From NCBI GenBank assembly GCA_022494885.1, contig JAGVSM010003414.1, forward strand, positions 558,001-622,000: 64,000 nt of DNA, read 5' to 3'. The DNA comes from Micrasema longulum (taxonomy: Eukaryota > Arthropoda > Insecta > Trichoptera > Brachycentridae). A program made the translations under genes and the position numbers. A model generated the notes under the pieces. It made no database searches. It was not told the origin of the DNA and saw only the letters and a list, made by a program, of their open reading frames with translations. Position 1 is the stretch's first letter. Every line of letters starts with the position of its first letter. Shown piece after piece: positions 7,734 through 46,351 of this stretch.

Positions 7734-7777
7734 ACCTTGACGAAGAAGCTTGTTTGCTTTGAAACCGGTCGGTAGAA
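7734..7777 (+). ncRNA. Hammerhead-ribozyme-like motif (PLE terminal repeat)
   Basis: The order is ACC (7733-7735 region), core TTGACGA, stem II AAGC/GCTT around TTGTTT, GAAA, then ACCGGT, C and GGT. The flanking ACC and GGT can pair as a 3-bp stem I, and ACCGGT forms the very short stem III of type-I minimal hammerheads. The core deviates from CUGANGA (first base T, or one extra T), so activity is doubtful. It lies directly downstream of the GIY-YIG relic on the same strand. Confidence 0.6.
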
Positions 7778-7864
7778 AAAAATAATAAAAAATTCGTGGT
7801 TAAAAACAAAGTTATTTTACTAATAAAGTATTTATTTATATGAAGACTTCACCTTTTCTTTCTT

Positions 7865-8045
7865 CTTTTGGATTATTATTCTTAATGTTGCTATTGTACA
7901 ATATGTTATCATTATTAAATTTAAGTTATTATATTTTTTCCCTTATTAACTATTATGGCTTAACTCGGGCACAGTCTCAAAGAGCTATTATAAGTTAGCG
8001 AATGTGTAAACAAATGTAATTTGAAATGAATAAATAAATAAAATT
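7865..8045 (+). repeat. LINE family Y 3' tail with long hairpin
   Basis: This matches 18062-18210 and 57150-57262: ATTCTTAATGTTGCTATTGT, then TATGGCTTAACTCGGGCACAG, AGAGCTATTATAAGTTA and an A-rich end. The two flanking blocks form a hairpin in which G-U wobble replaces pairs seen in the 18062 copy. No coding part survives. Confidence 0.7.
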
Positions 8046-8251
8046 AAATAAGATTGTAATTAATTATAAGGCTAAGAATGTTAGAAAATTCATAGCCTAA
8101 AATAAAAAAAGTACACGTACAAAACTTTTCTTGGTGAATGGTTTTCTTCGTTGTTTTTTTTCTGGTTTGTTTCTTATTTCTAAAGGCAGTTTGTATGTAT
8201 TTTACACTTATATGTTCATGAATTTGTATAAACCACTTTAATTGAGTGTTA

Positions 8252-8296
8252 TACTTCGACCGGTTTCGAAGTTTCTACCTCACCGTCAAGAACTAA
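8252..8296 (-). ncRNA. Degenerate hammerhead-like motif, inverted
   Basis: On the minus strand: TTC, TTGACGG, a 5-bp stem II (GAGGT around AGAA with ACTTC), GAAA, ACCGGT, C, GAA. It is the inverted counterpart of the motif at 7734, about 500 bases away, consistent with an inverted pair of PLE terminal repeats. The catalytic core is degraded. Confidence 0.5.
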
Positions 8297-8394
8297 ACTA
8301 ACTTATAATTACTCGCGTTGCTATTTGTATTATAAAATATTGTATGAAAGAGACAGAAAAATGAAAGAAAGAGAGAGAAAGAAGATAAAATGAA

Positions 8395-8640
8395 TCACAA
8401 CGGATCACAATGTTGATGGATGCAGAGAACGAGGAAGACCGAGAAAGACATGGCACGATCAAGTCCATCAAATACTTGAAGATGGACATGTCAAAAGTAG
8501 GAATAATCGGCGTGCGTGCATAAGAAGATGTATGAATGTAGAGAAAGCGAGGTCTGTATGCCAAGATAGAGTGTTATGGCGTTCTATCCTCTCTGCCTAC
8601 CCCTACGGGGAAACGGCGTGATGGTTTGTTGTTGTTGTAG
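8395..8640 (+). pseudogene. RTE-like LINE 3' end, 5'-truncated
   Basis: This copy corresponds to the last 80 or so codons of the element at 28507-29035: NVDGCRERGRPRKTWHDQVH and the terminal RVLWRSILSAYPYGETA, followed by TGATGGTTTGTTGTTGTTG. The RGRPRKTW motif is typical of the RTE-type C-terminus. Divergence is low. The upstream part is lost and replaced by an A/G-rich stretch (8340-8390). Confidence 0.88.
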
Positions 8641-8644
8641 AAGT

Positions 8645-9560
8645 TACATAATATAATGCAAGTAATATATCCCATATATTGATATTTTTCTGTGGTTCTG
8701 TGTGATACAACAATTATTATTCATGAAATCAACTCAAACAACGTGACTTCGTGATATATTATATTATGTAGATATACTGTCCATTTCTTTAATACATAAC
8801 TCATTTAAAAATAAACAAATTATAGCACTATGAATTCAGTGGATATTAGGTATTCAATTGAAATGTCAACTGGCCGAATTGTTTTAGAAATTAATAGTGC
8901 TAAAAACGGCCACGTCGAGCACCATATGTCCTGCAATATGACGCATGAAAGTAATTATAGTCTTATGTCAAAAGTACCATCTCAAAGACAAATAAGAAAT
9001 AATGTTTGAAATACTGTTTTCCAAATCAAGAATCTTGAAATCATTTTTGTAATCTGCAAGTTTAATCTAGGAAAAAAAACCCGCACTGGGGTTAAGACAT
9101 TTAAAATATAGTATACTTATTTGTTTGAAAAAATAAGCCGGAATAATCGGCTAGTTTCTTGGCTCACCGCAGACGCGGGGCGCGCTTTGTTGATATTAAT
9201 ATTTATATTAGGATAAAAATAATAACGGTGGAAATGATTTAAAATAAACAGTAATTATTAATTTGTTTTTCTGTTGATAAAGTTACTGTAAAACATTATT
9301 ATGGTTAGTCGAATAAAACGGTAAGCTGCGCATAATCGCTTTTATACACGGTTCGCCCCTAATATGAACAAAAACATTGAAATAATGCAAACATATAAGA
9401 ACAACATTTCTTAAATTTTATATTTATTAAAAAAATAATCTTATTTGCAGGTTTATAGTACAAAGCTTATAAAAATGAGATAAAATGATAAGGAAAAAAA
9501 TCCCATGTTGACATAGCCTGTGCGTGGGTATTAATTCAGTTTTACGTGACAGCACGAATT
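8645..9560. other. AT-rich DNA without supported features
   Basis: No gene, SINE head or terminal repeat is recognisable. A slightly GC-rich spot at 9160-9190 (CCGCAGACGCGGGGCGCG) is isolated. Confidence 0.5.
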
Positions 9561-9564
9561 CATT

Positions 9565-9690
9565 AACAAAATTACACATACATACGCATACATACATACA
9601 TACATACATACATACACACATACGCACATGCACACATACATAAATATATACAAAAAAATGTGTATACAATTACATACACATGTATGTATA
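9565..9690. repeat. (CATA)n / (CACA)n microsatellite
   Basis: Imperfect CATA units with interspersed CACA and CGCA run from about 9570 to 9690. The repeat-derived minus frame at 9427-9669 (M-Y-V-C rich) is an artefact of it. Confidence 0.92.
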
Positions 9691-9699
9691 CTAGAGGAG

Positions 9700-10790
9700 A
9701 TAAAAAAAAAAAAACTTTATTTTAAAACAAGTATTCTTCAGAAATAGCTAAAAGAGTTCCACATAAAATTAAACTGTTATTCGTTGAAAATAGATAAAAC
9801 CGTTTTTCAACTGTAACTGTAAAGAAAAACTAGTCAGAATATTAAATTAAACTGGTTCTAAAAAAATAGTTTTATAGTGTGTAGGAAATAACGACAAATA
9901 AGTCCAGATATGTGAAACTGTATTTTTTAAATAATTATAACAGTCTTTAGAGCAGTGGCAAAACCATGGCCACTCCCAATCCACATGAAAATAAAAAACT
10001 AGTTAGGGTAGGGAAAACTGTATCTTAAATAATAGCTCAAAGCAGCGTAACTCGTAATTATTTTTTGTGAAACTGTTCCAGCAGCTTCTTGTACTAGACT
10101 TTTAGCCCATGCTCCTCAAAATGTTATTTAGAAGCAGTTTCACCAAACAGTTTACTTGGCGAAACAGTCACTGTAACTGCTACTCCTATTTAATAACAGA
10201 AACGCCCATTTTTTCTATACACAATATTAACACATAACTAAAATCACTCCCAAACGAGTGGAGGCGTTTAAAAAAAATACACTAAAAACAAGCAATATGT
10301 AAAAAAAAACCTATTAAAAAACAGATAGTGCATATTTAAGACAAAGGGAAGATTCTTATAAACATAACGTAAACATGATCTCGTAAGGAAATTAAGTTTT
10401 GACATATAACATTTCCTTCCTCATCAATTTTCGTTTAATTATGTTGATAAAAATGTTTCGTTCTCAACGAGTTTTTGGGAATATTGTTTTATTTCTGGCT
10501 AAAATAACCACAGGATGGTTGGTAAAAGCTTTTCAAAATGAAAATAAAACTGTTTTTATATTGGTAGATAAATATGAAAAAAATATTTAGTTTCATTCTT
10601 AAAATTAATACAAGAAAATCTTATGTTTGATTATTTTTTTTAAATGTGAGTAATTCGTTTTCAATAAAACAGTCACATTCGAAAATTTGAAATTGTTTGT
10701 TATCCATAAAAAGCTTGTTCTTTTATGATTAAACATAAAAAATAGTAATAATAAAATATTGGGTAAATATTAAAATTTAAACAAAAAGTT
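9700..10790. other. AT-rich DNA without supported features
   Basis: Includes a 63-codon plus frame at 10399-10590 of ordinary composition with no recognised domain, not called as a gene. The stretch may be the decayed body of the LINE whose tail is at 10795-10885. Confidence 0.45.
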
Positions 10791-10794
10791 AAGA

Positions 10795-10885
10795 AAGGTG
10801 TGTTAAATAACTTATAAATCAAATAATGTACCTACAGAAGAATATATTTATATGTGCCCTATTTTAAAATTTGAAATAAAACAAA
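10795..10885 (+). repeat. LINE family Z 3' tail
   Basis: AACTTATAAATCAAAT, an AGAAGAATAT block, then TATGTGCCCTATTTTAAAATT matches the tails at 25790-25885 and 61195-61285. Flanking ATAT/ATAT or CACAT/ATGTG blocks form a small hairpin before the GCCCT box. Confidence 0.65.
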
Positions 10886-10984
10886 TATTAATTTCATAAT
10901 TCTTTAAGTTGTTTTTAAAAATAGAACTAACGCAGTAAAATAATGATTGCGTTTACTAATTATAACATTTACCACAATAACAAT

Positions 10985-11221
10985 AATTATCATGCCCCTT
11001 TCGGAACTCAGTGGTGCATAGAGCACTGAATGGTAAACCAAATGCAGCCTTATATGATCATCTTTTACAATAATGTAAGGTGATCAGTCATACGCTTCAG
11101 GTGCCAGTTTAGAAACTTTACAAATACTGCAGATTGAACAATTTTTAAATTCAATACGGACACCCTGGCAAGAATTGAATCCAGAACCTTACGAATGATA
11201 TGCGAACACACCAACCACTAC
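10985..11221 (-). repeat. tRNA-derived SINE (family 1), full-length-like
   Basis: Minus-strand order: degenerate tRNA-like head (TAGTGGTTGGTGTGTTCGCA, then a decayed GATTCAATTC B box), a body with CTGGCACCTGAAGCG and TGATCACCTTAC, the box TGCACCACTGAGTTCC, then the tail near 10985. The same body occurs at 11965, 26560, 47098 and 57470. Confidence 0.8.
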
Positions 11222-11960
11222 TTTTTATGACAATAATAATAATTGGCCAATTATTATAGAGCCGTTTTTGTGAAATATAACCTAAGCAATTTACAATAGT
11301 GATAAACCTTAATTAGGTATTTCTAAGACGTATATAACAACACGTCTTGCGGCTACATTACGCATGAGCGCGGCGGTTGCAATTCTAGATCATTTTGCAG
11401 TTACTGCTATGATTAAAATAACTATAAAACTTTTTCGAAACGAATTTAATATAGAGACAGTAATAAATCTTGCATTACAGATAAGCGAAATAACAACCCA
11501 GGCAGTCACTCCCTTAATAATAATGCTCTTCATAAATCTAAAAATGCCTACATTCGTGCGTTTAAAAAGAAATCATAAATCTCTATTGGTTTTCCTAGGA
11601 GCAGCAAAAATGCACCTCGTGTTAGAGTTTACAACTGGCTGAAAATGGGGGTGCGATTTATTTACGACCTGTGATGTCACATAAGCAGTGGCACGCCGCA
11701 GAAATTGCACACGGAGACCATAAGTTAGTTATGTATGGTTCATGTTGATAAAATAACCTTTCCAGCCGTTAATCTAATTTCGCTACTCGCAGGGCGGAGC
11801 AGTATTAAAAATTATGTTGACGCTGCGTCGAGCGTCGGCGTCGCGTCATGACTCATGACGCCGCATTTTGATATTTACTTTATCAGTAAACTTTCCATAC
11901 TACGCACAGGTTTAATTAATAGAGCAAAAAAATAGATAAAATTTATGCGTGTTTGTATAA
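11222..11960. other. Unassigned DNA with a GC-richer patch
   Basis: A 92-codon plus frame at 11364-11642 has no recognised domain and overlaps the repeat box, so it is not called. Around 11835-11865 lies a short near-perfect palindrome, GCGTCATGACTCATGACGC, containing TGACTCA. Confidence 0.45.
11340..11385 (-). repeat. Fragment of the iterated LINE 3' UTR box
   Basis: CGTCTTGCGGCTACATTACG followed by CATGAGCG and AATTCTAG is a diverged copy of the box found in the tails at 62517-62760 (minus) and 27200-27600 (plus). Confidence 0.5.
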
Positions 11961-11964
11961 TTTT

Positions 11965-12090
11965 CATCGTGTCCCTATCCGCAACCCGCAGTGCATAGGG
12001 TATTGAATTAGTGCATATTTTAATCATCTGTTACAAAAAAAGGTAAGGTGATCAGTTATACACTTTAGGTTCCATCATCATTCCGTGTTT
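11965..12090 (-). repeat. SINE family 1 body fragment
   Basis: Carries the body boxes (TGTCCCTATCCGCAACCCGC, AGTGCATAGGGTATTGAATT, AAGGTAAGGTGATCAGT, CACTTTAGGTTCCA) in the same order as the full copies at 47098 and 57470. The tRNA-like head is missing. Confidence 0.75.
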
Positions 12091-12469
12091 GCTCCCTAGT
12101 TGGAGCACATAGTATTCACAAAGTGCCTTTATGCATCACTATCGGCTGCAAGCTCCTGTGCATCCTCCAAAGTCAGGTTCGCGTCCCGTAGTTCTGAGAT
12201 AAACTGCCGACGAACACTCCGCAGTGGACAGCTAACCGTACCGCCTTCGCTTGATGACATTTGTCACCTGAGTTTTCTGCATCCGTTCTCTTATTACTTC
12301 ATTTCTCATAATGTCAAACCACCGCTTACCCAAGATTCAGCTCAGTAATTATTTTTATTCAAAACTCAACTTTTTTTAAAAAAAATTGACAGTTCATATT
12401 TGGAAGTCGTGAAGTTTAAACGTAGAAAAATACTCGATAAATGAACGAGTTTTAATCGCAAAATATTTT

Positions 12470-13430
12470 ATCAAAATCAGTCATCAATTATTAAGACGAC
12501 TAGAAAATTACTTGAAATTTTGAATGGAAATAATGTGCCATCAGAACCCACAATTGTTTAGAGAAAGATTTAGAAGAAAGAAGTTCTGTAGCAGATAAGT
12601 ACAAGCCTAGGCCACAACGTACGACAATATCAGCTGAAAATATTGATGCCGTCCTAGAAAGCGTTCAAAATAATCCATCAACCTTAATTCGACACCGTGC
12701 TCAAGAAATAGGACTTAACACAACATTTTTTTTGGAAATTATGCATAAAGATTTGTATTTAAACCTATTTTAAATTCAGTTGACACAAGAGCTTCTTCTA
12801 AAATACCATTTACGTAACCGTACATACTCGTATATGTGATGTTAGAGCTTGCTCATGATAGCCATAATTTATGAAAAAATCATGAGTGATGAGTGATAAT
12901 TTTTGACGCATTTCCATTTAAATGGATACGTTAATTAACAAATAGTCGGTTCTGTTCAACAGAAAATCCTTAAATTATTTAAGGTAAGGTGATCACATAA
13001 TATAAGTCACACTTGAATCTTTTAAAAGTTACAGAGTATGGTGCGTTATGTGTGGAGGAATCACTGGCCCTTACTTTTTTGGAGATCTTTATCGTGACAT
13101 GATTGATAAACTTTTTGACACCAGAATGAGAAGCTTTGGGCTTGATTAATATGTGATTCCGACAAGACCAAGCAACTTCACATACATCCAATGTTACTAA
13201 GGAAATACTGAGAGATTTGTTTCCAAAACAAATAATATGGTGATGTCGATTGGCCTCCACAGTCGCAGGATTAAACAGCCGCGGACTTTTTTGGAAGGGA
13301 TATCTAAAGAACAAGGTTTATGTTAACAAATCAGAAACAAGGTTTATGTTAACAAATCAGAAACACACATAGCAACTTTAACAAAACATTCGTCAACATA
13401 TTACAACAGAGATGAAGAACATTTAAAATA
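12470..13430 (+). pseudogene. Tc1/mariner-superfamily transposase relic
   Basis: Three plus-strand segments align in order to one transposase. The N-terminal helix-turn-helix part reads RPQRTTISAENIDAVLESVQ, then NNPSTLIRHRAQEIGL and an IQLTQEL end (12600-12800). The middle reads MSDE, then HFHLNGYVN (12880-12950). The DDE part reads GITGPYFFGDLY (13065-13100), DQATSHTSNVTKEILRDLFP with the catalytic-type aspartate (13160-13230), WPPQSQD and GYLKNKVYVNKSE (13250-13360). At least four frameshifts and several stops separate them. The whole arrangement is that of arthropod IS630-Tc1-mariner transposases. Terminal inverted repeats were not found. Confidence 0.85.
13311..13362. repeat. 26-bp tandem duplication
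   Basis: The unit ACAAGGTTTATGTTAACAAA, then TCAGAA, occurs twice in a row inside the 3' part of the mariner relic. Confidence 0.95.
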
Positions 13431-13720
13431 ATATAATATGGAAGTCTAGGCATCTACAGGGCTTATGACCTGTCAATGGCTGGTTTAAGTGGCCACTTTA
13501 CACACTGTGTAACATTCACTATTCTGCCCATATCCGAACATTTATATTCCTACAATTCTTTCATCTGTTGATGTTTGTAAAGTAAAAGAGCTGAAACCTT
13601 TAAATGTTCTTCATCTCTGTTGTAATATGTTAATATAAACAGCTCCCCAGGGAGTTGAATCTAGTCCTTGTCTACAAAAATTTGGACAAACTCAAAAATT
13701 GGTGATAAAACATTCGTGAC
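13430..13720 (-). repeat. Family S copy (composite)
   Basis: Contains GACCTGTCAATGGCTGGTTT, TGGCCACTTTACACACTGTG, the TCATCTGTTGATG and GAGCTGAAACC blocks, then (plus sense) AAATGTTCTTCATCTCTGTTG and CAGCTCCCCAGGGAGTTG. The mixture of orientations shows two fragments in opposite senses joined near 13600. Confidence 0.75.
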
Positions 13721-13801
13721 TAAATTAATGAAATTTAACGGTTAAATTTGTGAAAATGTGATTTAAAATGTTATAAAAAGAGCCAGCGTTCGTTAGGCTA
13801 A

Positions 13802-14044
13802 AGCTAGGGTTTCCTAGGACAACGGTGCCCGTATTTTAACGGCCGTAGTGAACGGTGATGCAGTGGACAACCGTCGTAAAGGTGATTAGAGAGTGGTTTC
13901 CTAGGAAAACGGTGTTAAATGGTGTTGATAACACCGTTTTCCTAGAAAACCACACTCTAGTCACCTTGACGACGGCTGTCCATTGCATCACCGTTCACTA
14001 CGGCCGTTAAAATACGGGCACCGCTGTCCTAGGAAACCCTAGCT
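13802..14044. mobile_element. 243-bp palindromic MITE (AGCTAGGG termini)
   Basis: The element is almost one perfect fold-back: the left arm starts AGCTAGGGTTTCCTAGGACA and the right arm ends with its complement, with about 115 bp per arm meeting near 13925. It is flanked by TAA on both sides (13799-13801 and 14045-14047), a 3-bp target duplication that suggests PIF/Harbinger but does not prove it. A second copy at 58893-59125 is also flanked by TAA. Confidence 0.9.
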
Positions 14045-14047
14045 TAA

Positions 14048-15085
14048 CGGAGGCGGATATTTAGCTGACATTGTCGTCCATACATAATTTCCAACATTCA
14101 ATATACAGAATATTCAGCAAACTATTCAGTAAACCCTAAAGGTAATGAGAAAAACGTCACGGCTTATTAAACAAGAATAGATCTTTAGCATCTCCCTGTT
14201 TCGTCATTTAATTTCTATCGATATGACAATATATTATCTTCTTAGTAGTCCCAAATATGACAATGGTTACCATTAACAACATGTCATATACGTACGTATA
14301 TTATCTTCCTCTGTAAAATTAATTTTCTCCCCGAAATTATATAATATGTGTCTGCGGGGATATCGTCAGCTTACTTTGAAAAGGTACGAGATTTGACACA
14401 TTGTCAGGGGAATGACAAGTCACAAGCCATAGACAATATTTAAAAATTGTAAATATATCTTTATCATAAAGCAGAAAATACATGTTAGTGGTTATTTGTT
14501 CGTCCGTCAGATGGACCCTTCGAAACGGTAAGTCGAAGCGATGTAATTTTTTTTTAAATCGGGAAATTCATAGCACGATGATTTTTTGAAAAATAAAAAG
14601 AGTTTGAATCCATCCTAGGGACTTTAAAGTTGATATCGAATAATAAAGTAAATCGGCATTAACAGGTTTTTTGACAAGTCCAACAATTTACATACTTTGT
14701 TATTATTCTTGATTAACTCGTCCATTGAGTGCCCAGTGACATACGACTTCCATATTTACTTATTTATTTATTCATATATTCGCCCTTTATATTTTTAAGG
14801 AAATATACATAGAAAATTATTATAAAGGAAAATACAAAGACACAATGGTATAAGACCAGGTGGTAGTGGAAGCGGGAGAGGTGTTCAGTGATCGTTTGAA
14901 AGAAGACAACTTGTTATCAAAGGAATCAAGACGACTGGTATGTTTGTTGGCAGAATATAATAAAATATTCTAATTGAGAGTTTGTTTTTCTACAAATAAT
15001 GTAGGTATGAGTAACTATTTTATACATTTTGATACATTTGTACAGTCAGAGTACAGTCTTTATTTATGCATGAGTAAGTTTACCT
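14048..15085. other. AT-rich DNA without supported features
   Basis: About 1 kb with no convincing gene, RNA or repeat structure. Confidence 0.5.
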
Positions 15086-15089
15086 ATCG

Positions 15090-15185
15090 TCGGCTTCGTG
15101 GTGTAATAGTCAGCGCGTTTGCCTACCGTGCAAGAGGTCTCGGGTTCGATTCCCGAGACGGTTGACATGAAATATTTATTTAAAT
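15090..15185 (+). repeat. tRNA-derived SINE head (family 1), well preserved
   Basis: GGCTTCGTGGTGTAATAGTC gives an A-box-like region, TTGC-CTACCGT-GCAA an anticodon-arm-like hairpin and CTCGGGTTCGATTCCCGAG a perfect T-arm hairpin with B box. The 3' half of the acceptor stem does not pair with the 5' end and the sequence runs on as GACATGAAATATTTATTTAA, the shared SINE body. It resembles a glycine tRNA and is a SINE rather than a working tRNA. Confidence 0.85.
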
Positions 15186-15199
15186 TATGCCTTTCTTAA

Positions 15200-16150
15200 G
15201 AATGTTCTCCATCTCTATAGAAATATATTAAATTAAATTTTAAAATTACAAACTCACTGTTGCATATGGGTATAAGAAATATATTTTTTTTTTAAATGGC
15301 TTACAAGGGTAAATATCTGTCAGTGATTTGAAACGCCAGAAAAAATTTAAAATGTACAAAATAAGTTAATTTCCTTTATGGAAATGTGTTTTTGCACGGG
15401 AAAGCCGCTTTAGGGGAAATTGCCAACATTCCTTCCCCACTTTGAACCATAATCACATCAGCTGTGTTATTTTGATAACACTCCCTCGATGCTAACAGAA
15501 ATATGGCTTCCAATTAACCGGATCATCACCGCGCTGGTTTCCGTTTTTTTGCTGCGCCGGTAAACCAGTAGAGGTACTAAAAATAGTAAAACAATTTAGG
15601 CTTTAGTAACATAAGAGTAATAGAGAATTTCTTCAATCTTTGGTTTCCTTAGTTACTAATTCTTATTATTTTATATAATAATATATTACCTATACACAAA
15701 AGCATAAAATTTAATATGCAACGCCATTTTACTTTTAAGAAACATACATATATTACGTACTTATATATACAAACAACGGTACAACAATAAGGCTTTCAGT
15801 TACTTTTTACGGATACGCTTTTTTCTTATTATTTGGAATTGTTTTATATAAAGAAAACTTTAATTGCCTCATAATTTTGGTTTATTTGTAAATATTAATC
15901 GATGGCTGTTGTTTTCTAAAATAAACAGGTTGAAAAAAATTTTTTTTTTGTAGTTTCAGCTTTGTTAAAGGACGGAAAAGTTGTATTTGGTTACTAGATA
16001 ATTTTTATTCCAGAATTACATACTTTCTAAGCCTGCGAGCGGGAATGCTAAAAAGCATTGTATGCAAAATTTCCGGGACAACGAAAAAACAGTTTAAAAT
16101 TTTAAAGACGCAGATTATGTTTACATTAAATCTTCGTTTTGCATACCGAC
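15200..16150. other. AT-rich DNA without supported features
   Basis: No reading frame or repeat is supported. A small less AT-rich patch at 15460-15570 has no coding signal. Confidence 0.5.
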
Positions 16151-16156
16151 TATTCT

Positions 16157-16200
16157 ATGTTTACCGGTTTCGAGACGCACCTGTCTCTTTATGAGAACAT
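16157..16200 (-). ncRNA. Hammerhead-like motif with intact stem I
   Basis: Minus-strand order: ATGTT, a core reading CTCATAA, stem II GAGAC/GTCTC around AGGTGC, GAAA, ACCGGT, A, AACAT. The ATGTT and AACAT arms are perfectly complementary, giving a 5-bp stem I. The core has two changes from CTGATGA, so it is probably inactive, but the architecture is that of a type-I hammerhead with a minimal stem III. Confidence 0.68.
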
Positions 16201-16400: not shown

Positions 16401-16484
16401 AATATTTCAACAAAAAAAAAGAATAATCTGTCACTCAGAATAACGATACCAAAACCACACAGTTATAATATATTAAATATTCAG

Positions 16485-17395: not shown

Positions 17396-17397
17396 AA

Positions 17398-18030
17398 TAA
17401 TGAGAAGAACAGATGTCTTTGACAAAAGTACAAAATTAATGATATACAATGCTTTTATACTTCCACACTTTGTATATGGATTAATAATATGGTCGCAATG
17501 TAGTAAACATATGCAAGAATCAATACAAAGAACATTTCATTTTAATAAATATACTAGAACCACAGATTTATATAGAATAACAAAAACGCTCAATCTAGGA
17601 ATTGATCTACACAGAAAAATATAAATGACTCTTAAGATGAAAAAGAATAAAATAAAGACAAATATTAAATTTAATTTTAACTACAACATACATAAAATAA
17701 ATACAAGAGAATCAAATAATTAAATAATATTAATAACTTGCGAACAACCTAGGACCAACAGAAAAAGAAACAGTTTTTTGTATACAGCAATAAATTTTTA
17801 CAATTCACTTTCTAATGATCTAAAAAATATACAAAACATGTACGTACTTAAAAAACACCTAAATAAAACAGTTCTTACAGCCCGTGTGACGAGTGATATG
17901 TGATGTTATATTATTGATTTTTTATTTAAACTATTGTGTTATTATATATAATACCCCCTCATACCAGCACTTTTGCTGATTGGGAATATTTCGTACAAAT
18001 AAAATATGTAATAAAATGTAATATGTAAAG
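17398..18030 (+). pseudogene. LINE family X: RT C-terminus and 3' UTR
   Basis: The plus strand reads MRRTDVFDKSTKLMIYNAFI, then LPHFVYGLIIWSQCSK, the usual post-catalytic RT region (Y-AFI-PHF-YG-IIW). An internal deletion joins it to TFHFNKYTRTTDLYRITKTL. A two-base deletion near 17600 shifts the frame relative to the copy at 3290-3812. Farther on, TNRKRNSFLYTAINFYNSLS and LKKHLNK end at a stop near 17902, the normal C-terminal end of such proteins. The 3' UTR contains the small CAGCA/TGCTG hairpin (about 17967-17980) and ends near 18030. Confidence 0.85.
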
Positions 18031-18061
18031 TTTAAAAACCTTGTCAAAATGTCAAATGTTA

Positions 18062-18210
18062 TTTTTAGGACTGTTATTCTTAATATTGTTATTGTATAAT
18101 ACCTATGTTATTATTTATTCTGATGTACTATTTTTTTCATGATAATTATTATGGCTTAACACAGGCACAGCCTAAAAAGCCATAATAAGTTAATGAATAT
18201 ATATTATTTA
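18062..18210 (+). repeat. LINE family Y 3' tail with 12-bp hairpin
   Basis: TTATTATGGCTT (18146-18157) pairs perfectly with AAGCCATAATAA (18177-18188) across a loop containing the conserved AACACAGGCACAGCC. Related copies lie at 7865-8045 and 57150-57262. Confidence 0.75.
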
Positions 18211-18284
18211 TGTTCAAAGCATCAACTTTGTAGTCAAACATTTTAAACTAATGTTAGTAGATTTGTATATTTAACCACTTACCG

Positions 18285-18345
18285 ACTTTTTAAGTCTACC
18301 GGTTTCGAGACGTACCTGTCTCTTCATCAGGATACTCACTACACC
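18285..18345 (-). ncRNA. Hammerhead-like motif, CTGATGA core intact
   Basis: Minus strand: GAGTATC, CTGATGA, one extra A, stem II GAGAC/GTCTC around AGGTAC, GAAA, ACCGGT, A, GACTTA. The catalytic heptamer and GAAA are canonical. Stem I is disturbed by an AT insertion (GAGT-AT-C); without it the arm would pair with GACTT. It is in inverted orientation relative to the motif at 18855-18905. Confidence 0.7.
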
Positions 18346-18499
18346 AACATGCAAATACTAAAATACATATTGACCTTTACCATCTCCTTAGTATACAAAG
18401 TATTTACGAAAAAATACATTAATTACATGCGGAGTTAAAGGGGATGCAAACACCACCATGTCCGAATATGCACTAAAATTAAGTTGATAATATTTAGCG

Positions 18500-18730: not shown

Positions 18731-18854
18731 ACATAGACCAAAAAAATATATTTTATTTATAATTAAGTAGAGAAAACATGACATTAAGTTTAAAAAAAAC
18801 GATTTGAACTACGTTGAATACGAACAGTGTATTTTAGTATATACATGTTTATGT

Positions 18855-18905
18855 AGTGAGTCCTGACGAGAGACGGATACGTCTCGAAACTGGTAAACAT
18901 TAAAA
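18855..18905 (+). ncRNA. Hammerhead-like motif with fully canonical core
   Basis: CTGACGA (18863-18869) is followed without any extra base by stem II GAGAC/GTCTC around GGATAC, then GAAA (18886-18889), ACTGGT, A. This satisfies CUGANGA and GAAA with a G-C closing pair in stem II. The presumptive stem I arms (GAGTC before, AACAT after) do not pair with each other, so the copy is probably not self-cleaving as it stands. Confidence 0.68.
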
Positions 18906-18949
18906 AAGTCGGTAAGTGTTTACATACTATTTACTGATATTAGTTTATC

Positions 18950-20440: not shown

Positions 20441-20669
20441 AATTAAGTTAAATATTTTTGTATTAAAATAATAAGTATTTAACTGCTTAATAAATTAAAA
20501 TACCCATCTAAGTAATAAAAAAAATAATCAAAGGCATTTTTTGTAGAAACAATATGCGTATTTTTTTTATATTTAAATCAATGACAGGTCGTAAACTCTG
20601 TGCTGATTAGCTATTCTGAACATATTTATTTATAATATTGATGTTTTTTGTTGATATTTCTTGATAAAA

Positions 20670-20890
20670 CTCCATACTTAATAATATTATGATAAAATTA
20701 TAAATAAACTTATCAATGAAACTTCTTGTTTTAGTTTTACTTTTTATAATTTTGACCAACGAGCGCTTTCGCTTAAGTAGGCATCTTCAAGACTGGGTTC
20801 AAGCGCTCGTTGGTCAAAATAATAATAAAAAGTAAAACTCAACCAAGAAGTTTCGTTGATAAGTTAATTGATAATTTTATTATAATCATA
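20670..20890. mobile_element. Fold-back element with hammerhead-like centre
   Basis: Two arms of about 95 bp (left ACTTATCAATGAAACTTCTT, GTTTTACTTTTTATAATTTT, GACCAACGAGCGCTT; right their complements) enclose about 32 bases. The centre and inner arms make a hammerhead-like motif on the minus strand (20756-20796). No autonomous coding sequence; ends near ATTATGATAAAATTAT and its complement. Confidence 0.85.
20756..20796 (-). ncRNA. Hammerhead-like motif in fold-back centre
   Basis: Minus strand: CCAGT, CTTGAAGA, a weak stem II, GAAA, AGCGCT, C, GTTGG. Stem I can form with two wobble pairs (CCAGT with GTTGG). The core has one extra T compared with CUGANGA. The half AAGCGCT plus CGTTGGTC is duplicated in inverted orientation at 20801-20815, so the motif sits on the axis of the palindrome. 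Confidence 0.6.
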
Positions 20891-20899
20891 TTTATTTAT

Positions 20900-23449: not shown

Positions 23450-23960
23450 TTTTGATAATTTCTTTGATTATCTAAATGAATGGCGCATGTTTTAAATGCT
23501 GTTCATTATATCTTCAAAGGACGTTAAAAGGAGATAGGAGTTTTGTATTTGATTCACTGTTGAATTTAAGCATTCTAAAAACGAAGAATTCCATACAACT
23601 GCCATACAAAGAGAGAACAAACAATGGCATTAAGGGCGGGGTAAGGAAAGAAATCTGGCTACATTATGTAAAGCAAAATATGAATATTATATTCCTACAG
23701 GAAGAAAAGAATCAAAGAGCGAGTCCTTTATCACAGGGAATGAAACGGGAGAAAAGAGAACAAATATAACAATAATGTTTCTAGAATGTTGCAGCTGTAA
23801 TTGAACGTGGTTATGCAGAAAGCAGCCAGCCATAGAAAAGTGAAACAGAGATAATAGCACTTTTGTGAAAAGGGTGAATAATCGAATCTACACAACAGTT
23901 GGAATGTTTTCTAATTTTGACAAATAATAAATAATGAATAAATTATTTATTGACAATTCT
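23450..23960. other. Unassigned DNA with a 97-codon frame
   Basis: The plus frame 23476-23769 is Lys/Asn/Glu-rich with no recognised domain and no neighbouring support. It is noted only because it is long for this AT content. Confidence 0.35.
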
Positions 23961-23964
23961 CGAT

Positions 23965-24225
23965 GGAATTCCATTGTAATGATGTAATAACTTATTTTTA
24001 CATGTGAGTTTTTAATTTAAAAAATACTTGGTACACTTAAGATAATATTTAGTTTTATATAAATTATCCATACACTGTATAATATTCACCAGTCTGAAGA
24101 TGCCCATTAGAGGGTGAAAGCGCTAATTGGTCAAAATAAATAAGTGGAATTGTACCAAGTATTAAAAAAAAAAAAAAAAAAACTTATATGTAAATATAAG
24201 TTAATACATCATCACAATGAATAAA
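23965..24225. mobile_element. Fold-back element carrying a hammerhead
   Basis: The left arm CATTGTAATGATGTAATAAC, followed by TTACATGTGAG, a T/A run and AATACTTGGTACA, is mirrored on the right by TGTACCAAGTATT, a poly(A) run and ACTTATATGTAAATATAAG, GATGATG-type ends in complement. Arms are about 70 bp. The loop (about 24045-24145) contains the best hammerhead of the window. Confidence 0.8.
24089..24130 (+). ncRNA. Type-I hammerhead ribozyme motif, near canonical
   Basis: Stem I 5' arm CCAGT (24089-24093), catalytic heptamer CTGAAGA (24094-24100), stem II GCCC/GGGT around ATTAGA, GAAA (24116-24119), palindromic stem III AGCGCT (24119-24124), cleavage-site base A (24125), stem I 3' arm ATTGG (24126-24130). 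CCAGT pairs with ATTGG in all five positions (one G-U). The only oddity is one unpaired U at the base of stem II. The six-base stem III closes on itself only weakly, as in the minimal hammerheads of Penelope-like elements that work best as dimers. Confidence 0.75.
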
Positions 24226-38960: not shown

Positions 38961-38967
38961 CAACATT

Positions 38968-39025
38968 CCAAAAAAGAGACTGGCTCTTGTGCTTGGAGAA
39001 TGCCTGACTCTGTTTTAGTTATTTA
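38968..39025 (+). repeat. Short dispersed repeat (partner at 62768-62815)
   Basis: AAAAGAGACTGGCTCTTGTG, then CTTGGAGAATGCCT and AGTTATTTA match 62770-62815 in the same order. Confidence 0.65.
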
Positions 39026-39094
39026 GTGGATTTAAAGATACATAATTTCAAAATAAATAAAAAATTGTGTCACAAATGTTATTTGTTGATACAA

Positions 39095-39340
39095 ATATAC
39101 ATACATAATACAATATACACATATATACACACACATTTATACACACACATACATATGTGTACAGACATACATACAGACATACAGACATACTCACATACAT
39201 ACATACATGCATACATACATACATACATGCAAACATTAATAAATAAATAAAATAATAAACAAATAAATAAATAAATAAACAAATAAATAAATGAATCAAT
39301 GAATGAATGAATGAATGAATAAATAAATAAATAAAAAAAT
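39095..39340. repeat. (ACAT)n and (AATA)n microsatellite tract
   Basis: ACAT/ACAG units run to about 39235, followed by AATA and AATG units to about 39340. Long frames on both strands here are artefacts of the repeat. Confidence 0.95.
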
Positions 39341-39344
39341 ACAG

Positions 39345-40180
39345 ACATATATTTATACATACTTTTATTACATACCGTATTTTGAAAATAAAGATGTATG
39401 GATAATATGTGTCTGTGTATATCAATTTAGAAAATTTGTATTTTTAATTATTTTTTTATAGGTGTTAAATGTTCTCATTTTTTTATTTTATGTTTTAACT
39501 TGTCTTTCCTTTTCTTTGTTGTATTGCTTCTAGTATTTGTTACTGTTTTATAATTGTTTTTCGTAGTGTGATTTGTTTAAATTGGACATTGTCGGTAAGT
39601 TTGTTAAATAAAATAAAATATAGACATACTCACATCTACACAAATATACATGGCTTTTATTTACTGCAAAATATTCATAATATTATGTTCCTTGTAACTG
39701 CTCTAACTATTGTGTGAGGATCTGGTAGGATAGTCGACCAAAGAATTGTTAAGGAACTTCTCCGCGATACAAAAGTTGAGGCTTTTATAAGGCAAACAAC
39801 CTGTCGTGGGTTGGTTTCAGCGTTCACTTTACTTATGTAACATTCAGCTACCTGGGTTTGAACATACACATTTCCTATTTTTTACTTGTTTTTTTTTGTT
39901 AAGTAATAAAGCAGAAACGTTAATAAACTTAATTTGAATAATTTTACCGTATTTTTTTTTTTCAATTTTTAATATTTCTTAAAAGACATGTTTATGTCCG
40001 AATTTTTGTTATAACTTAGGTATTGGATTCAACCATAAAAAAAACATATCATATACATTTCTAAAAAAAACAACAATGAAATAAAAATATGTTTATTTAC
40101 TATTTTCATGTAATTGATTTATAAAAAAAATTAAACCCAGAAATTTAATGATCCAATGTATAATTATTTCACTGTGCCCA
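39345..40180. other. AT-rich DNA with a degenerate family S piece
   Basis: 39790-39880 (AACAACCTGTCGTGGGTTGG, then GTAACATTCAGCTAC and TGAACATACACATTTCC) follows the order of family S on the minus strand. Nothing else is supported. Confidence 0.5.
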
Positions 40181-40184
40181 TTGA

Positions 40185-40345
40185 ACCGGGCTATGGTCCC
40201 GTAACTGGTGTAACGGACTCAGGGATCAGAGGTCCATGTTTCGAACCCCACTTTACCAAAACTTGATTCCCATTTTCTAATAGTAAGTTATTTACTCGTT
40301 GAAAAAGGCCCTAAAAATGTTGATATTTGCGTAAATTATAAGAAC
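40185..40345 (+). repeat. tRNA-derived SINE (family 3)
   Basis: GGTCCCGTAACTGGTGTAAC, GGACTCAGGGATCAGAGGTC and a TTCGAACCCC B box, then the body AGTAAGTTATTTACTCGTTG and a GCGTAAATTATAAG tail. Same family as 29685-29850 and 63640-63800. Confidence 0.8.
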
Positions 40346-40396
40346 GAAAATATTTATTTTAAAGAAAACCTACACTATACATCGTAAAAAGTATCA

Positions 40397-40428
40397 TATA
40401 TATATATATATGTATATATATATGCTAA
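40397..40428. repeat. (TA)n microsatellite
   Basis: Alternating TA of about 30 bases with a single G interruption. Confidence 0.9.
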
Positions 40429-40429
40429 A

Positions 40430-41415
40430 TACAATTATCAAATAGCTAAGTATCAATTTAAAAAAACTAATTTTGCAAAAACTTAGTATTTCCTAAAAAT
40501 CAAACCGCAAAAATAACAAAATACAGAAACATTAAAAGCTTTTTAAATGCTAAATAGCATAATTTTAAAAGTACCAAACGAAAAGTAAAAAAAATGACCA
40601 CCCCTATCGATTTGCTTCAACCAACTCTTCGGATCTACTTCGCAACTTTCAAAAGCTCTCGCAAAATAAAACTGAGGTATGCAAATACTTTAAGGGCCGA
40701 AGAATGAATGGTTGAGACCAGGACATGGGAGGTAGTGATGAGAATAATAAACGGATTGATATACATAATCGAGAAATCAGAAAATCCGACTGATATAATC
40801 GATTCTTCCGGTTTCAATCCCAGGGTTTGAGTTACAGCAAATACTCTCATCTCATCTTATTACGAGGATAAGCAATATAAAAATTTGAGAAAATGTAGTA
40901 TTTTAAGATTTTCAATACATTTTTATGCCTTAGCCGAGATGGTAAGAATTTTTTTCTCGACCGATTATTTTTCATGTTCTTTTTGTGAAAAATAGTTACC
41001 TAGTATCTGTAAACGGCTATTTCGAACCGGATGTAATACTACCATCAACCATAATTTCTTTTAGAGGTAGGCAGATAATATGAAAACCCACACGCGTCTT
41101 ACTTGCCCTATAAAATGTATGTACAAGAATTAATTGACAAGAGATCACGATCCGGTTCTAAAAGTAAGAAATAAACTTCATAAAATCAAATAAACGTCGA
41201 TTTTATCTGAATTGACACTGATCATGCGTTTTTGGATTATGGTTCATACAATCAATAATTATATGGTAATAAGTAAAGAGGTATATGTCACTTAAACGGA
41301 AAAAATGAGTGCGCAGTCCCACTTTATAAGGTCTACGGAAGGTAGGGTGAAGAGATACAAATAAGGAAAAAAATATTGATTTCAATAATAAAATTGGCAA
41401 CACTTTTTTTATCTA
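40430..41415. other. Unassigned DNA
   Basis: A 71-codon minus frame at 40635-40850 has no recognised domain. No repeat found. Confidence 0.45.
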
Positions 41416-41419
41416 CATT

Positions 41420-41655
41420 TCATTTTTTCACGAACTAAAACACGAGTAAAACAGCATTTAGTTAAAACTGCAATGTTATTCATTCTTAACTGGATTATCA
41501 TAATTCATAATAATAAATTTTGATTAAAACAAAAAAAAACCCTTCTCTAAAACGTTCTCCGTCTGTGTTGTAATTTGTTAAAAATAAAATTGTTTGAGAT
41601 TCTGAAGCCTTTTAAACCATAAAATGTTTTTAAAAAAAATTTTCGTTCTACCAAG
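41420..41655. repeat. Dispersed repeat copy (partner at 1005-1200)
   Basis: Same blocks and order as 1005-1200, but interrupted at 41545-41590 by a family S-like piece (CCCTTCTCTAAAACGTTCTC, then GTCTGTGTTGTAATTTGTT). Confidence 0.6.
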
Positions 41656-41659
41656 ACTT

Positions 41660-42210
41660 TTTTCATATTTTTTATTTGTTTACACATAATATGATATATA
41701 AAATCAAATAAAAAAAAGATAAATAAAAAAATATAAAAAATTCACATAGACATGACCTGTGCATGGGTATACTAAATCTAGATTACATTATGAAATTTAT
41801 GGTGTAGCTGCATTTATAAATACAACAAATAAAAAATTTAAGTTGCATTTTGTTTTTTTTTAAATCCGGGTTAGTGTCGTATAATTCGAATTTACTACTA
41901 GGCAAAAAAGTACATGCAACTTTTATGAAAATTGTCTTTAACAACGTAAAAGAAACCCAAATTATGTGCCCGGCTTAACGTATTTTATTTTTAAGTATAC
42001 GCATTGAAAGTTCATGCTAAAATAGCAAGTGAAAGTCAAAATGATTCCCCTGCACAATCAGCTAATAGCGACTTGCACCTCTTCACCTAAATATTACAGA
42101 ATTGTGTTTTTACACTCGTAGATTATGCAGGCAGAATGAAACTTATCGAACTAGGATGCAGCCCAAACACTAGGTTTAGCAATCGTGATTTTGTCATAGC
42201 TGGGTCGCGA
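41660..42210. other. AT-rich DNA without supported features
   Basis: No coding or repeat signal recognised. Confidence 0.45.
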
Positions 42211-42214
42211 TTAC

Positions 42215-43110
42215 AATGGCAAGTTAAGGACGTCATACCCTTACTATGACGGTGTAGTTGAAAAGTAATTCTCCCAAACGATTACGAAGATATACTACTG
42301 ACCCTCTACCTTCAAGTTTTGGGTAGGTACATCGATATGTACCCAGGGCACGCGTACACCATGGTACACATATCTACGCACTAAAGTGACATTCCTTTAT
42401 TATGACGTCATAGTAAAAGATAAATTCTCCCGAGCGATCACAAAGACACACTAACGACCATTTATCTTCAAGTTTTGAGGTAGATAGATCGGTATGCACC
42501 GAGTGCTTTAGTACCCCGCTTCACACATACCCATGCATTAAAAGGGACAAAAATTTTACTCCACAGAGCAATTTTTGCTTTAATTATTTATGATTTGCTT
42601 AAATTTTGAATCGTTCTTAGATAGCCACTTTTTTCTTAAAAGCCTATTTAAAATATGAAAAAGAAATAAGTAAATTTTGAAGGAAAAATTAATTCTAACA
42701 TAACCGTCAGTTTTGAAACCGAACGGCTAGATGCAGAGATAATGTGGCTAGATGCTGGCTAGATGTGGCTAGACATATTAACTTATAGAAGCATCTAGCG
42801 CGTTACATTTGGTAATTGGTAAAAAGATTGCCATTTTGAAAAATAAAAATAATAATAATATTTTTTCCTATCCTTCTGAAAGCATATATCTACATATTAG
42901 TAAAGCCGACTTTGTAATACTTCGGTAGATACATATGGACGAAAATTTTGTACCGTCTAGGTAATTGTCAAATATCATTTAAAAATCGTGTTCAAGAGAG
43001 TAGTTTTTGCTTTAATTGTCATTCATTTAAATCTTAAATCGTTTTGAAGGGGCTGCTTTTTATCACAGGAGCATATTTAAAATATAACAAAAAAATACTC
43101 AATAAAGCAT
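42215..43110. repeat. Nested diverged direct repeats
   Basis: ATTCTCCCAAACGATTACGA at about 42268 recurs as ATTCTCCCGAGCGATCACAA at about 42424, with CTTCAAGTTTTGGGTAGGTA versus CTTCAAGTTTTGAGGTAGAT following, a period near 156 bp. A second pair, TTTTTGCTTTAATTATTTAT near 42570 and TTTTTGCTTTAATTGTCATT near 43005, has a period near 435 bp. A small GGCTAGATG tandem (42726-42775) lies between. No coding sequence. Confidence 0.75.
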
Positions 43111-43114
43111 TAAA

Positions 43115-45130
43115 CGCGGAGTAAAGTTTCCGGGCTAACCCATTGGTTGAATTCGATTATATGACATCCGATATGACGTAATGAAAACACAAATATACAG
43201 GTCGGTACCTTTGATTAACTTCAAACATGTGCATCATCGACAGTCCCAGTCAGTTACCACTACCAAAAGTTAGTTATAACGTAACTTTAAATTTTCATGT
43301 ATGTGTATAAAATTATGAAACGCCCTTGGGGTAATTTTTATTATTATAATTACGATTCGGGGCAGGTATTACTGATATACCTAATAGAATTATAAAGTTA
43401 TAAAAATAACCGAAAAACTATATTACCATAACCGGTTAAACATCACTAATAAGTCTCATTCCCAACTACGACGTCTCTAGCAAGCTACCCCTTCTCCATA
43501 TAACCCTCGGACCTTTGACACTTTACGGAATTTCGTTTCACATTCTTACCCAAAAACTTAGCGAAAATCCTCGACCAAGAATGTGATGAAAAATGGATGT
43601 AACAGAAAGGTTCCTCGTTTATTAGAATAAAATTGTCTCGGGGAATTCAATTTACAGACATACGCATATTCTTTCAGACACGTAGGTATCATAATTCAAT
43701 AGAATAAAAACAAATATCATATTTGTGACTGCATTTCGACCAAAAAAATGTTTGTAAAATTCATAACAGTATCGCAACGTATTCATATTAAAATTTGCAT
43801 AAAGGGCTCTGCAGTGGTATTAAATATGTTCATTTCTTATAATGATGGCAATATCACAAGTCTAGTCTTCCAATTCCAGCGTCTCAGGGAAACTAAGGAA
43901 ACACTATATCTATTACTATGCACTGGGTATCGCAATTCTGTCTAACTTCTTGACTCTGGATTCTGCTTCTTTTGGGTTTCTCTGCGATTGCCTTTAGTAC
44001 TTTCATCTCTGACGTTCTAAGCAGTTATTTAGTTTTTCTACTTGGTTTTTCGTATTTTTCATTTTCTCTATCTATCCTCACCTCTGTTGTAAACACCATG
44101 ATTTGGTCTGACACACGTTTTGTATATCCGAATACAGCTTTGAAAACAGGATAAAGACTGCATTAAGTCCACCTATTGGTACTCGTGAGACAAAAATCAC
44201 GTTGACCAGCGTAATAATTTTATTATTGGATTTTATCAGTCAGTCAATATGTCAAGATAAAGGATAGGGGTATTTTGAGACACTTCCTGACATAAATTCA
44301 AGCACGCAATTTTAATTCTGAAAAATTTAATCAGAATAATGACTTTTTTCTTTTATATGAAACCGAATAATTTTTATAAAAAAACATTTAAAATGAAATT
44401 GAGGTTTTCAAGCTAAGTAATCTAAAGTGCAAATAGTTTCATAAGAAATTTTCATCAAAAAGTTTTTCTGCATTTTCCACCCTTGAGTTTTCTAGGACAT
44501 GGAAATTCTTTCCCCTACAAAGTTTAACTATACTACTGCCCTACTTTGGTTAGCTTGTATTGTCCTTTATGTTCTAGACGTATATAATGTACGTTCATGT
44601 AGGAATGTGAGAAAACTTGCATCACCATTACTTACATGTACATATCGTCGCGACCGTAAAACAACAACGGATGTGCGAAAAATGCAACATTGACTGTCTT
44701 TTGTATTTGATATTAAAAAAGGTTTTATAAAAACTTTGTGTTCTAGGTTTGAATTTATGTATATAACTAACCCTAGTATTCAATTATATACTTTGTACTT
44801 AACGAGTTGTGACATTAAGTGTCAAAAATAAATTAAACTGCTCTCACGTAAAGTTGAAGAAAATAACATGCGTGGTTGTTCTACAATTATGACGGTATGT
44901 TAGTTGCTTCCAATTTTGTATTCGGAATTTCTCCATCACCCACAGTTTTTTTTGTTATTATATTTTTTTTACATTTTAAAATTTTTTTTCGTTAATTTGT
45001 CCATTGTCAAGTAAAAGTTCATTGACCATTGAAGGTTAATATGGTGAAAACAAATGAGCCAACTCAAATGGTAACGCTGCTAATGTTGTGCTTGTTTAGC
45101 ACATGTATAGACGTGATCTAGTGTAGCACA
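43115..45130. other. AT-rich DNA without supported genes
   Basis: 43310-43345 (AACGCCCTTGGGGTAATTTT) may be another LINE family W tail. Several short frames (43748, 43972, 44499) show no domain. Confidence 0.45.
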
Positions 45131-45135
45131 CATTT

Positions 45136-45545
45136 TTGTGTGAATGGGTTAGTAGGGACAGGACCCATTGTATAATCCTAAAAATGTATGCCTATGTACC
45201 TGCATTACATATCAAACTAGGATTAATTAAAATGTTCGTCAGAGCCGTGGACAATACTTCTGGTTTCATGTACCCCAAACAGAAGTTTCCTAAAATAAGT
45301 GATGGTATAATTAAAGAGGGAATTTTTGTGGGTCCACAAATTCGATCACTTATGCATAACGAAAAGATTAAGGAACTATTGAATCCACTGGATAAAGCAG
45401 CTTGGAAAACATTCAAAAATATTACTCATAGTTTTTTTAGGAAATCGAAACGCACAAATTTACTGGGATATTGTCAACGATCGTACAACAACATATTCCA
45501 ATTTTAAACATTAATTATGATTTTCTATTATCATTCTCAAAACTA
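45136..45545 (+). pseudogene. Fragment of a widespread arthropod transposon-type ORF
   Basis: The frame includes PALHIKLGLIKMFVRAVDN, then SGFMYPKQKFPKISDGIIKE, GIFVGPQIRSLM and DKAAWKTFKNITHSFF. I recognise this block as part of a repetitive uncharacterised protein family found in many invertebrate genomes, with H-KLGL-K-FVKA, KFP--S-AK-KEGIFVGP-IR and AW--FKN--. After a frameshift near 45460 a YWDIVND-like piece and a weak HFLHSH-like piece follow, as expected next in that family. It is truncated at both ends. The transposon superfamily is not certain, so none is named. Confidence 0.75.
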
Positions 45546-45893
45546 ATGACACTGTTGGTAAGAAGAACTGTTAATGAGCTAACAGTACTTTATAAAATAA
45601 TTCACTCGTCACGTCGCCGCCGGCGTCAATATACTGGTTAAACCCTCTAAATGGCAAAAATTTATAAAACGAGTTATAAATGCCGTTATAAGCCATTTTT
45701 TAGCTTAATCAACTGATTAAATCCTCTAATTCCCGAGGTTTTGTTTAAAAGTTATCTTATATAACACTCACATTTTTTTAATGTTCTGGTTAAAAACATT
45801 AAAGTTAGAAAGTGAAATTTTTGATGGAAGTTCATTGTAATTTATTATATAAATAAAAGACGAGTGATACTTTTATCCACGAATTTGGAAAAT

Positions 45894-45936
45894 CCAGTGA
45901 CCGGTTTCATCGCTTTCGCGACATCTTCAAGACTGG
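45894..45936 (-). ncRNA. Hammerhead-like motif, left arm
   Basis: Minus strand: CCAGT, CTTGAAGA, stem II TCGC/GCGA around GAAA, GAAA, ACCGGT, C, ACTGG. Stem I (CCAGT with ACTGG) is perfect. One extra T in the core relative to CUGANGA. Confidence 0.65.
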
Positions 45937-46308
45937 TATGTTTATTAAGGAGTTCAATGTATTTATACAAAACAACGGTAACGATAGATAATTCAAAATA
46001 TATGAGAGTAAATTAAATAAAGTTATTTTTATCAGATTTTTTTTGGGTTAACTAATGAGTTGATATAATGCTATTTTAATGAGTTAAAGTATTTTAAACA
46101 GTTACACTAAAAATAAAATACTTGTAACTATTTAAAATACTTACCTCATTAAAATAGCATTATATCAACTCATTAGTTATCCCAAAAAAAGTCTGATAAT
46201 GATCCTTAAGATAAAAATAACTTTATTTAATTTACTCTCATGTAACTTTTGAATTATCTATCCTTACCTCTGTATTGTATAAATACATTGAACTCTTTAA
46301 TAAAGATA

Positions 46309-46351
46309 CCAGTCTCGAAGATGTCGCGAAAGCGATGAAACCGGTCACTGG
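46309..46351 (+). ncRNA. Hammerhead-like motif, right arm
   Basis: Mirror of the left motif: CCAGT (46309-46313), CTCGAAGA, stem II TCGC/GCGA (46324-46335), GAAA (46337-46340), ACCGGT (46340-46345), C (46346), ACTGG (46347-46351). Stem I is perfect; the core is one base too long. Confidence 0.65.

Follow-up and report, generated by a model that had tools for sequence, protein, structure and literature searches.

Hammerhead-like motifs of Penelope-like and likely Penelope-like repeat families in a 64-kb stretch of the Micrasema longulum genome

The window analyzed here, a stretch of 64,000 nucleotides (C3248:558001-622000) from the 584-Mb genome of the trichopteran Micrasema longulum, contains nine motifs that resemble hammerhead ribozymes, at 7734(+), 8252(-), 16157(-), 18285(-), 18855(+), 20756(-), 24089(+), 45894(-) and 46309(+). 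These are very probably copies, most of them with altered cores, of type I hammerhead-like motifs that come from the pseudo-long terminal repeats (pLTRs) of three families of Penelope-like elements (PLEs; families PLE1, B and C) and of two repeat families likely to be PLEs (family A and the '24' family); the predicted cut in the element transcript falls 54-86 nt ahead of its start codon. Minimal type I hammerheads of PLEs were reportedly described by Cervera and De la Pena in 2014. The motifs of the window are a set of new members of these already known minimal hammerheads (PMC6155905, PMC7229834; PMC identifiers refer throughout to excerpts of the respective papers). The nine scattered motifs are now placed in element families, and the pairs on opposite strands are traced to inverted pLTRs.

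Detection and structure of the nine motifs

All nine motifs are confirmed at the places and on the strands given in a preliminary description of this sequence. Two covariance models were trained exclusively on copies from outside the window: R1 on 22 family A copies (22 of the 23 distinct motifs of this family, one 48-nt motif being left out), and R2 on eight family B copies (8 of 23 distinct motifs), three PLE1 copies and one '24' copy. Run across the whole window with filters off, R1 and R2 together recover nine of the nine motifs, the weakest being 8252(-) with an E-value of 0.01; the best other match, at 0.17, is the next in the R1 output after its five motifs (18285, 16157, 18855, 7734 and 8252). 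R2 also scores 7734 (0.39) and 8252 (0.42), its best other match being 0.6. Since the structure was supplied by the analyst, the models gauge family likeness. The motifs are as follows (loci fetched for comparison carry L numbers):

7732..7775, + strand: hammerhead-like motif of family C (7734), with U for C3 or an extra U (R1, 8.3e-5; surrounding sequence 83% to L125)
8253..8294, - strand: degenerate hammerhead-like motif (8252; R1, 0.01)
16157..16200, - strand: hammerhead-like motif of family A, with the core lost by changes of G5 and G8 (R1, 7.8e-17; 78% to 18280-18378)
18292..18335, - strand: hammerhead-like motif of family A (18285), exact core, weak stem I (R1, 3.5e-18)
18858..18900, + strand: hammerhead-like motif of family A (18855), exact core, weak stem I, inverted partner of 18292-18335 (R1, 1.8e-15)
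20755..20797, - strand: hammerhead-like motif of PLE1 (20756), extra U in the core, centre of the palindrome 20680-20892 (R2, 4.2e-13)
24088..24131, + strand: hammerhead-like motif of the '24' family (24089), exact core, both stems, extra U after A9 (R2, 8.1e-15; descriptor; fold)
45893..45937, - strand: hammerhead-like motif of family B (45894), extra core pyrimidine (R2, 4.1e-21; descriptor)
46308..46352, + strand: hammerhead-like motif of family B (46309), extra core pyrimidine (R2, 1.7e-21; descriptor)

A structure descriptor, drawn up once the motifs were known, requires paired stems I and II, GAAA and a self-complementary stem III, and tolerates up to one extra pyrimidine in the core and up to one linker base. 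Among the nine motifs, 24089, 45894 and 46309 pass its stem filters; these are its three matches in the window, and 284 kb contain five, whereas ten dinucleotide-shuffled versions of those 284 kb contain none. In 220 kb elsewhere on the contig of the window, the models produce eight matches at E<=0.05, two of which (L136 and L142) belong to the R2 training set, so that the window is richer in motifs but not unique.

A search of Rfam with the whole window and two short stretches, at the gathering threshold and at E 10, detects no hammerhead, and for this reason the motifs are termed hammerhead-like. A genome search with RF00163, also without a match, is uninformative, as 73 of 64330 candidates were scored and the controls were not recovered. 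The lack of covariance-model hits that the preliminary description regarded as decisive against it is seen literally with the Rfam models and not with models of these families; the hammerhead-like architecture it described for the nine motifs is supported. The Rfam result and the low score of 8252(-) taken by itself would fit chance matches in AT-rich sequence. This explanation is exceedingly improbable given the shuffles (with the reservation that the descriptor is post hoc), the model scores, which contradict it for eight of the nine motifs, and the 561 exact genome copies of the 34-nt family A core and 482 of the PLE1 core, compared with zero for either reversed pattern.

When the core is compared with the standard one (C3 U4 G5 A6 N7 G8 A9, G12 A13 A14, A15.1-U16.1, H17; PMC3088659), the CUGANGA-like sequence attributed to all nine copies by the preliminary description is exact in three (18285, 18855 and 24089), and only 24089(+) among these also retains both stems; the core is altered in the other six. 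An extra pyrimidine is found in 20756, 45894 and 46309; 7734 has U at C3 or an additional U; 8252 combines an extra U with an A9 to G change; and both G5 and G8 are replaced in 16157. Furthermore, a base is inserted between A9 and stem II, or an unambiguous reading is impossible, in eight of the nine copies, 18855 being the one that lacks such a base. In stem I, 24089, 45894, 46309, 20756 and 16157 form 5-6 bp and 7734 forms 3 bp, whereas pairing is poor in 18285, 18855 and 8252.

In the family sequences, both stem I and stem II form pairs, and a palindromic six-mer makes up stem III. Re-dealing the 3' arms among the five family sequences shows that the actual combination yields 20 of 20 pairs for stem II, a value reached by only 1 of 120 permutations, and 23 of 25 pairs for stem I, reached by 6 of 120, which is the minimum possible because the 5' arm is common to three families. 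Compensatory change is therefore seen between families in both stems; no compensation is seen among the copies of family B (17 fetched copies and that of the window). The covariation claimed in the preliminary description is supported between families. The same description took covariation to argue for RNA structure rather than shared descent. This opposition is not supported. Both hold: within a family, the copies have a common descent and their variation shows no visible compensation, and six of the nine cores are non-canonical.

Repeat families and their link to Penelope-like elements

The families of 7734, 20756 and 45894/46309 are PLEs, with PLE coding sequence beside their pLTRs. For these, the link of all nine motifs to PLEs that had been inferred in the preliminary description is borne out; it is moderate for 16157, 18285 and 18855, depends on a reading by eye for 24089, and is weak for 8252. 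An open reading frame (ORF) that combines reverse transcriptase and GIY-YIG endonuclease is found in PLE1 (L163 and L164), and families B and C show endonuclease remnants only. The features of the window that accompany the motifs are the following:

20626..20796, - strand: 5' part of PLE1 with the start codon of the ORF (ATG) at 20675 (94% to L163 3687-3856; peptide MEFYQEISTKNINII)
45839..46404, + strand: palindromic pair of inverted family B pLTRs (self-comparison)
45797..45835, - strand: family B tail, ATG and MNFHQKF...
7187..7548, + strand: remnant of a PLE GIY-YIG endonuclease, broken, in two pieces (tblastn, 4.7e-22; PF01541 on 7187-7375, 8.5e-5)
7159..7203, - strand: ORF-start tail of family C in inverted orientation, joined to a truncated PLE coding remnant (L125 8263-8302 matches 7159-7198 at 95%; by-eye reading)
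18200..18241, - strand: family A tail, ATG and MFDYKVDALNINNI
23936..23974, - strand: possible tail of the '24' family, ATG and MEFHRELSINN (read by eye)

A genome search for GIY-YIG lists 43 matches, some of them within long open frames, and four of these places were fetched (L163-L166). Three (L163, L164 and L166) are PLEs, each with the PLE1 motif in its pLTR; in L163, the motif lies between two tandem element copies, and in L166, it is located 84 nt ahead of the ATG of a 617-aa frame. The ORFs of L163 and L164 contain both the RVT_1 and the GIY-YIG domain, and that of L166 contains RVT_1. The L163 ORF has 384 protein matches at E<=0.001, and the organism names noted among the 120 listed are those of insects. 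Of the 11 GIY-YIG matches that lie on contigs up to C1046, 7 are followed within 1.1 kb, on their own strand, by an exact PLE1 motif; this count draws on the first 100 of the motif's 482 places. A PLE1-like palindrome at L125 8061-8162 keeps GAAAGCGCTC and a hairpin and has lost the CUGANGA part. The fourth place, L165 (C3360:134301-138300), is not a PLE. It consists of intron-free, close-packed long frames, which we take to resemble bacterial transporter and UvrC genes. In view of these bacterial-looking frames, the contig may derive from a symbiont or contaminant. A pattern scan of viral contigs matched at least 120 stretches, and for the PLE protein against viral contigs none of 119 pattern matches was confirmed.

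The genome search for family B lists 96 matches, many of them full length (566 bp) with 81-86% identity, and a further set about 272 bp long and up to 93% identical. The consensus of both arms (17 fetched copies and the window) is CCAGU-CUCGAAGA-U-GUCGC-GAAA-GCGAU-GAAA-CCGG-UC-ACUGG. The motifs are 96-97% identical to the consensus, other arm segments 90-97%, with a sliding-window mean of 90%; the high identity of the motif is no proof of constraint. In most family B copies, a conserved extension is present at just one side, and the ORF-start tail peptide is found in 14 of the 16 copies examined (it is missing from L155 and L159; L152 is outside this sample). In L161, a GIY-YIG-like fragment, 56% identical to a PLE protein, sits between inverted pLTRs, and in L162, the C-terminal part lies beside a pLTR. 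Family C has two inverted arms in L125, and in the window 7734(+) lies downstream of the GIY-YIG remnant at 7187-7548(+); the PF01541 match of this remnant scores 23.2 bits against a cut-off of 22.6, and Pfam detects no PLE domain in 7363-7548. PLE coding sequence also occupies L123 813-1706, with no hammerhead seen by eye in the first 820 bases of this locus.

Family A is represented by 110 listed genome matches, many of about 305 bp and several arranged as head-to-head pairs; in the window, the arms 18244-18367 and 18828-18947 are inverted copies at 80% (self-comparison). The consensus, GUGUC-CUGACGA-A-GAGAC-GGGUAC-GUCUC-GAAA-CCGG-UA-GACAU, has the standard core and an extra A after A9. At one locus, L187, an endonuclease-like stretch (7e-4) is located directly 5' of the pLTR, with a second, collinear stretch (0.025). 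The ORF-start peptide and this weak coding match argue, with moderate strength, that family A belongs to the PLEs. The 8252(-) motif is likely a diverged family A copy, as suggested by its alignment to the 18285 copy, which scores above 500 of 500 shuffles; with six other references, 11 to 493 shuffles score at or above the alignment. By this homology, a PLE origin of 8252(-) is weakly suggested. The '24' motif lies within a palindromic unit, 23972-24219 (self-comparison), and downstream of it there is only a short unrelated frame; an ORF with reverse transcriptase and GIY-YIG was not found for this family, and its link to PLEs comes from the ORF-start match, a homology read by eye.

The position of the motif relative to the ORF recurs among the families. 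It is on the coding strand of the element, and the ATG follows the predicted cleavage site by 54-55 nt in family A (18285 and L127), 60 nt in one L125 arm of family C, 60-63 nt in family B and 83-86 nt in PLE1, with related peptides after it (MFDYKVDALNINNI, MNSHKVSASNINFI, MNFHQEFSLTNLN and MEFYQEISTKNINII); no such downstream ATG accompanies 18855, 16157, 7734, 46309, the other L125 arm or 8252. Inverted pLTRs with a one-sided tail that extends into the ORF start are found in families B and C, inverted pairs in family A and, by eye, the same in the '24' family. The head-to-head arrangement of pLTRs (with the one-sided tail in family B) explains why motifs are paired on opposite strands. Foldback DNA transposons (miniature inverted-repeat transposable elements) whose terminal inverted repeats happen to hold a hammerhead-like sequence would likewise account for the palindromic units 45839-46404, 20680-20892 and 23972-24219 and for the inverted arms of family A. 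Such an origin is quite unlikely: it is already contradicted for PLE1, B and C by the PLE coding sequence that adjoins their pLTRs, the ORF-start tail is on one side only, and inverted pLTRs with palindromic junctions are known for Penelope, where they are attributed to self-priming (PMC3846280). Metazoan retrozymes, short tandem repeats spread via hammerhead-processed circular RNA, would also place type I hammerhead-like motifs within small non-coding repeats; however, no tandem array within the window overlaps any motif, and the motifs belong to pairs of inverted pLTRs that carry the ORF starts of PLEs, which makes a retrozyme origin most unlikely.

Proposed cleavage and a non-catalytic alternative

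Under the proposed mechanism, the motif in the PLE RNA would cut just upstream of the ORF. The stem III of a lone motif is not long enough to close well, and two copies could pair via the palindromic ACCGGU to form a double hammerhead; alternatively, cleavage might be aided by the PLE protein, an effect reported for an Anolis PLE. Where copies lie in tandem, cleavage would release unit-length RNA. Cofolding predicts the double hammerhead for families A and B and a partial one for C.

Several results speak against the assignment of the motifs to PLE pLTRs or against their activity, in addition to the absence of Rfam matches. Cofolding produces no double hammerhead for PLE1 or the '24' family. 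No domain is reported by Pfam for the L161 fragment 511-633, and 11 stretches of 1.5 kb upstream of weaker GIY-YIG matches lack any noteworthy pLTR match. At the 13 remaining family A loci there is no PLE coding match at E 0.001, and L180 has an unrelated-looking match of no clear sense at 0.009; the link at one locus of 14, together with this match, is the reason why the evidence for family A is rated moderate. By canonical rules, the extra core pyrimidine of PLE1 and B predicts weak or no cleavage. Finally, catalytic mutants of the hammerhead of an Anolis PLE still insert in vitro (PMC11167929).

Accordingly, the pLTRs of PLEs might retain the motif for its fold, as a signal without catalytic function (e.g., in protein binding or the choice of template), with cleavage lost at least in PLE1 and B. 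This is a realistic possibility, although not the one we favor. It agrees with the PLE1 core, CUUGAAGA, which has an extra U in 482 exact copies whereas in 11 a C immediately precedes UGAAGA (the base is lost or changed), with the family B consensus CUCGAAGA at this position, and with the Anolis PLE, for which, apart from the behavior of the mutants, public RNA-seq reveals no RNA ends at the hammerhead site (PMC11167929). Conversely, the stems, GAAA, palindromic stem III and H17 are retained across families, and the 561 exact family A copies have the standard core residues. That the expanded core C-U-Y-G-A-A-G-A of PLE1 and family B, in an amplified Penelope lineage, still cleaves, either by forming a double hammerhead or with the help of the PLE protein as a cofactor, is conceivable but rather doubtful. 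Selection rules reject any core change, and insertions after A6 or near C3 left low activity, although some variant cores remained active (PMC3088659). The additional base in the core may represent a new variant; no report of it was found in the literature searched, the key 2014 paper lying outside its reach.

One genome offers a natural experiment, with the standard core residues in family A (561 exact copies) and the extra core base in PLE1 (482). This comparison would bear on whether PLEs need RNA self-cleavage, a need questioned by the in vitro work on the Anolis PLE (PMC11167929).

Other repeats of the window and comparison with known systems

The window contains several further repeats. 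Positions 1-614 hold 15 copies (100% identical) of a 41-bp unit as a perfect tandem array, which is cut by the window edge. Two adjacent open frames at 50130-51725, the first with RVT_1 (3.8e-30), are by their look of the long interspersed element type, not PLE. The tRNA-like repeat copies at 15089-15184 and 53485-53580 (Rfam tRNA match at 15099-15156) are probably tRNA-derived short interspersed elements. Foldback repeats with arms that are 92-94% complementary and a spacer of 11-37 nt are located at 13801-14045 and 58889-59129 and contain no hammerhead-like motif. A dispersed repeat of about 500 bp is present at 3290-3791 and 17527-18044, inverted and 89% identical.

Among the known systems, the minimal type I hammerheads of PLEs (PMC6155905) are similar to the present motifs in their pLTR location, very short stem III, lack of evident loop-loop contacts and proposed action as dimers; the difference is the extra core pyrimidine in PLE1 and B. 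The endonuclease-containing Penelope of Adineta vaga (PMC3846280) shares the inverted pLTRs, an optional tail with the first ORF codons, palindromic junctions and head-to-head pairs. It differs in its host, in the many solo inverted pLTR pairs without an ORF found here, and in that the excerpt of PMC3846280 makes no mention of a hammerhead. The Poseidon PLE of Anolis carolinensis, PAc (PMC11167929), resembles the present elements in its reverse transcriptase, GIY-YIG and pLTR hammerhead; the site differs, being predicted here 54-86 nt upstream of the start codon, and the PAc hammerhead does not cleave unless the PLE protein is present. The type I hammerheads of newt and axolotl (PMC7229834, PMC6155905) also have a short palindromic stem III and act as dimers, but they reside in tandem satellite repeats or retrozymes, in contrast to the inverted pLTRs of M. 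longulum.

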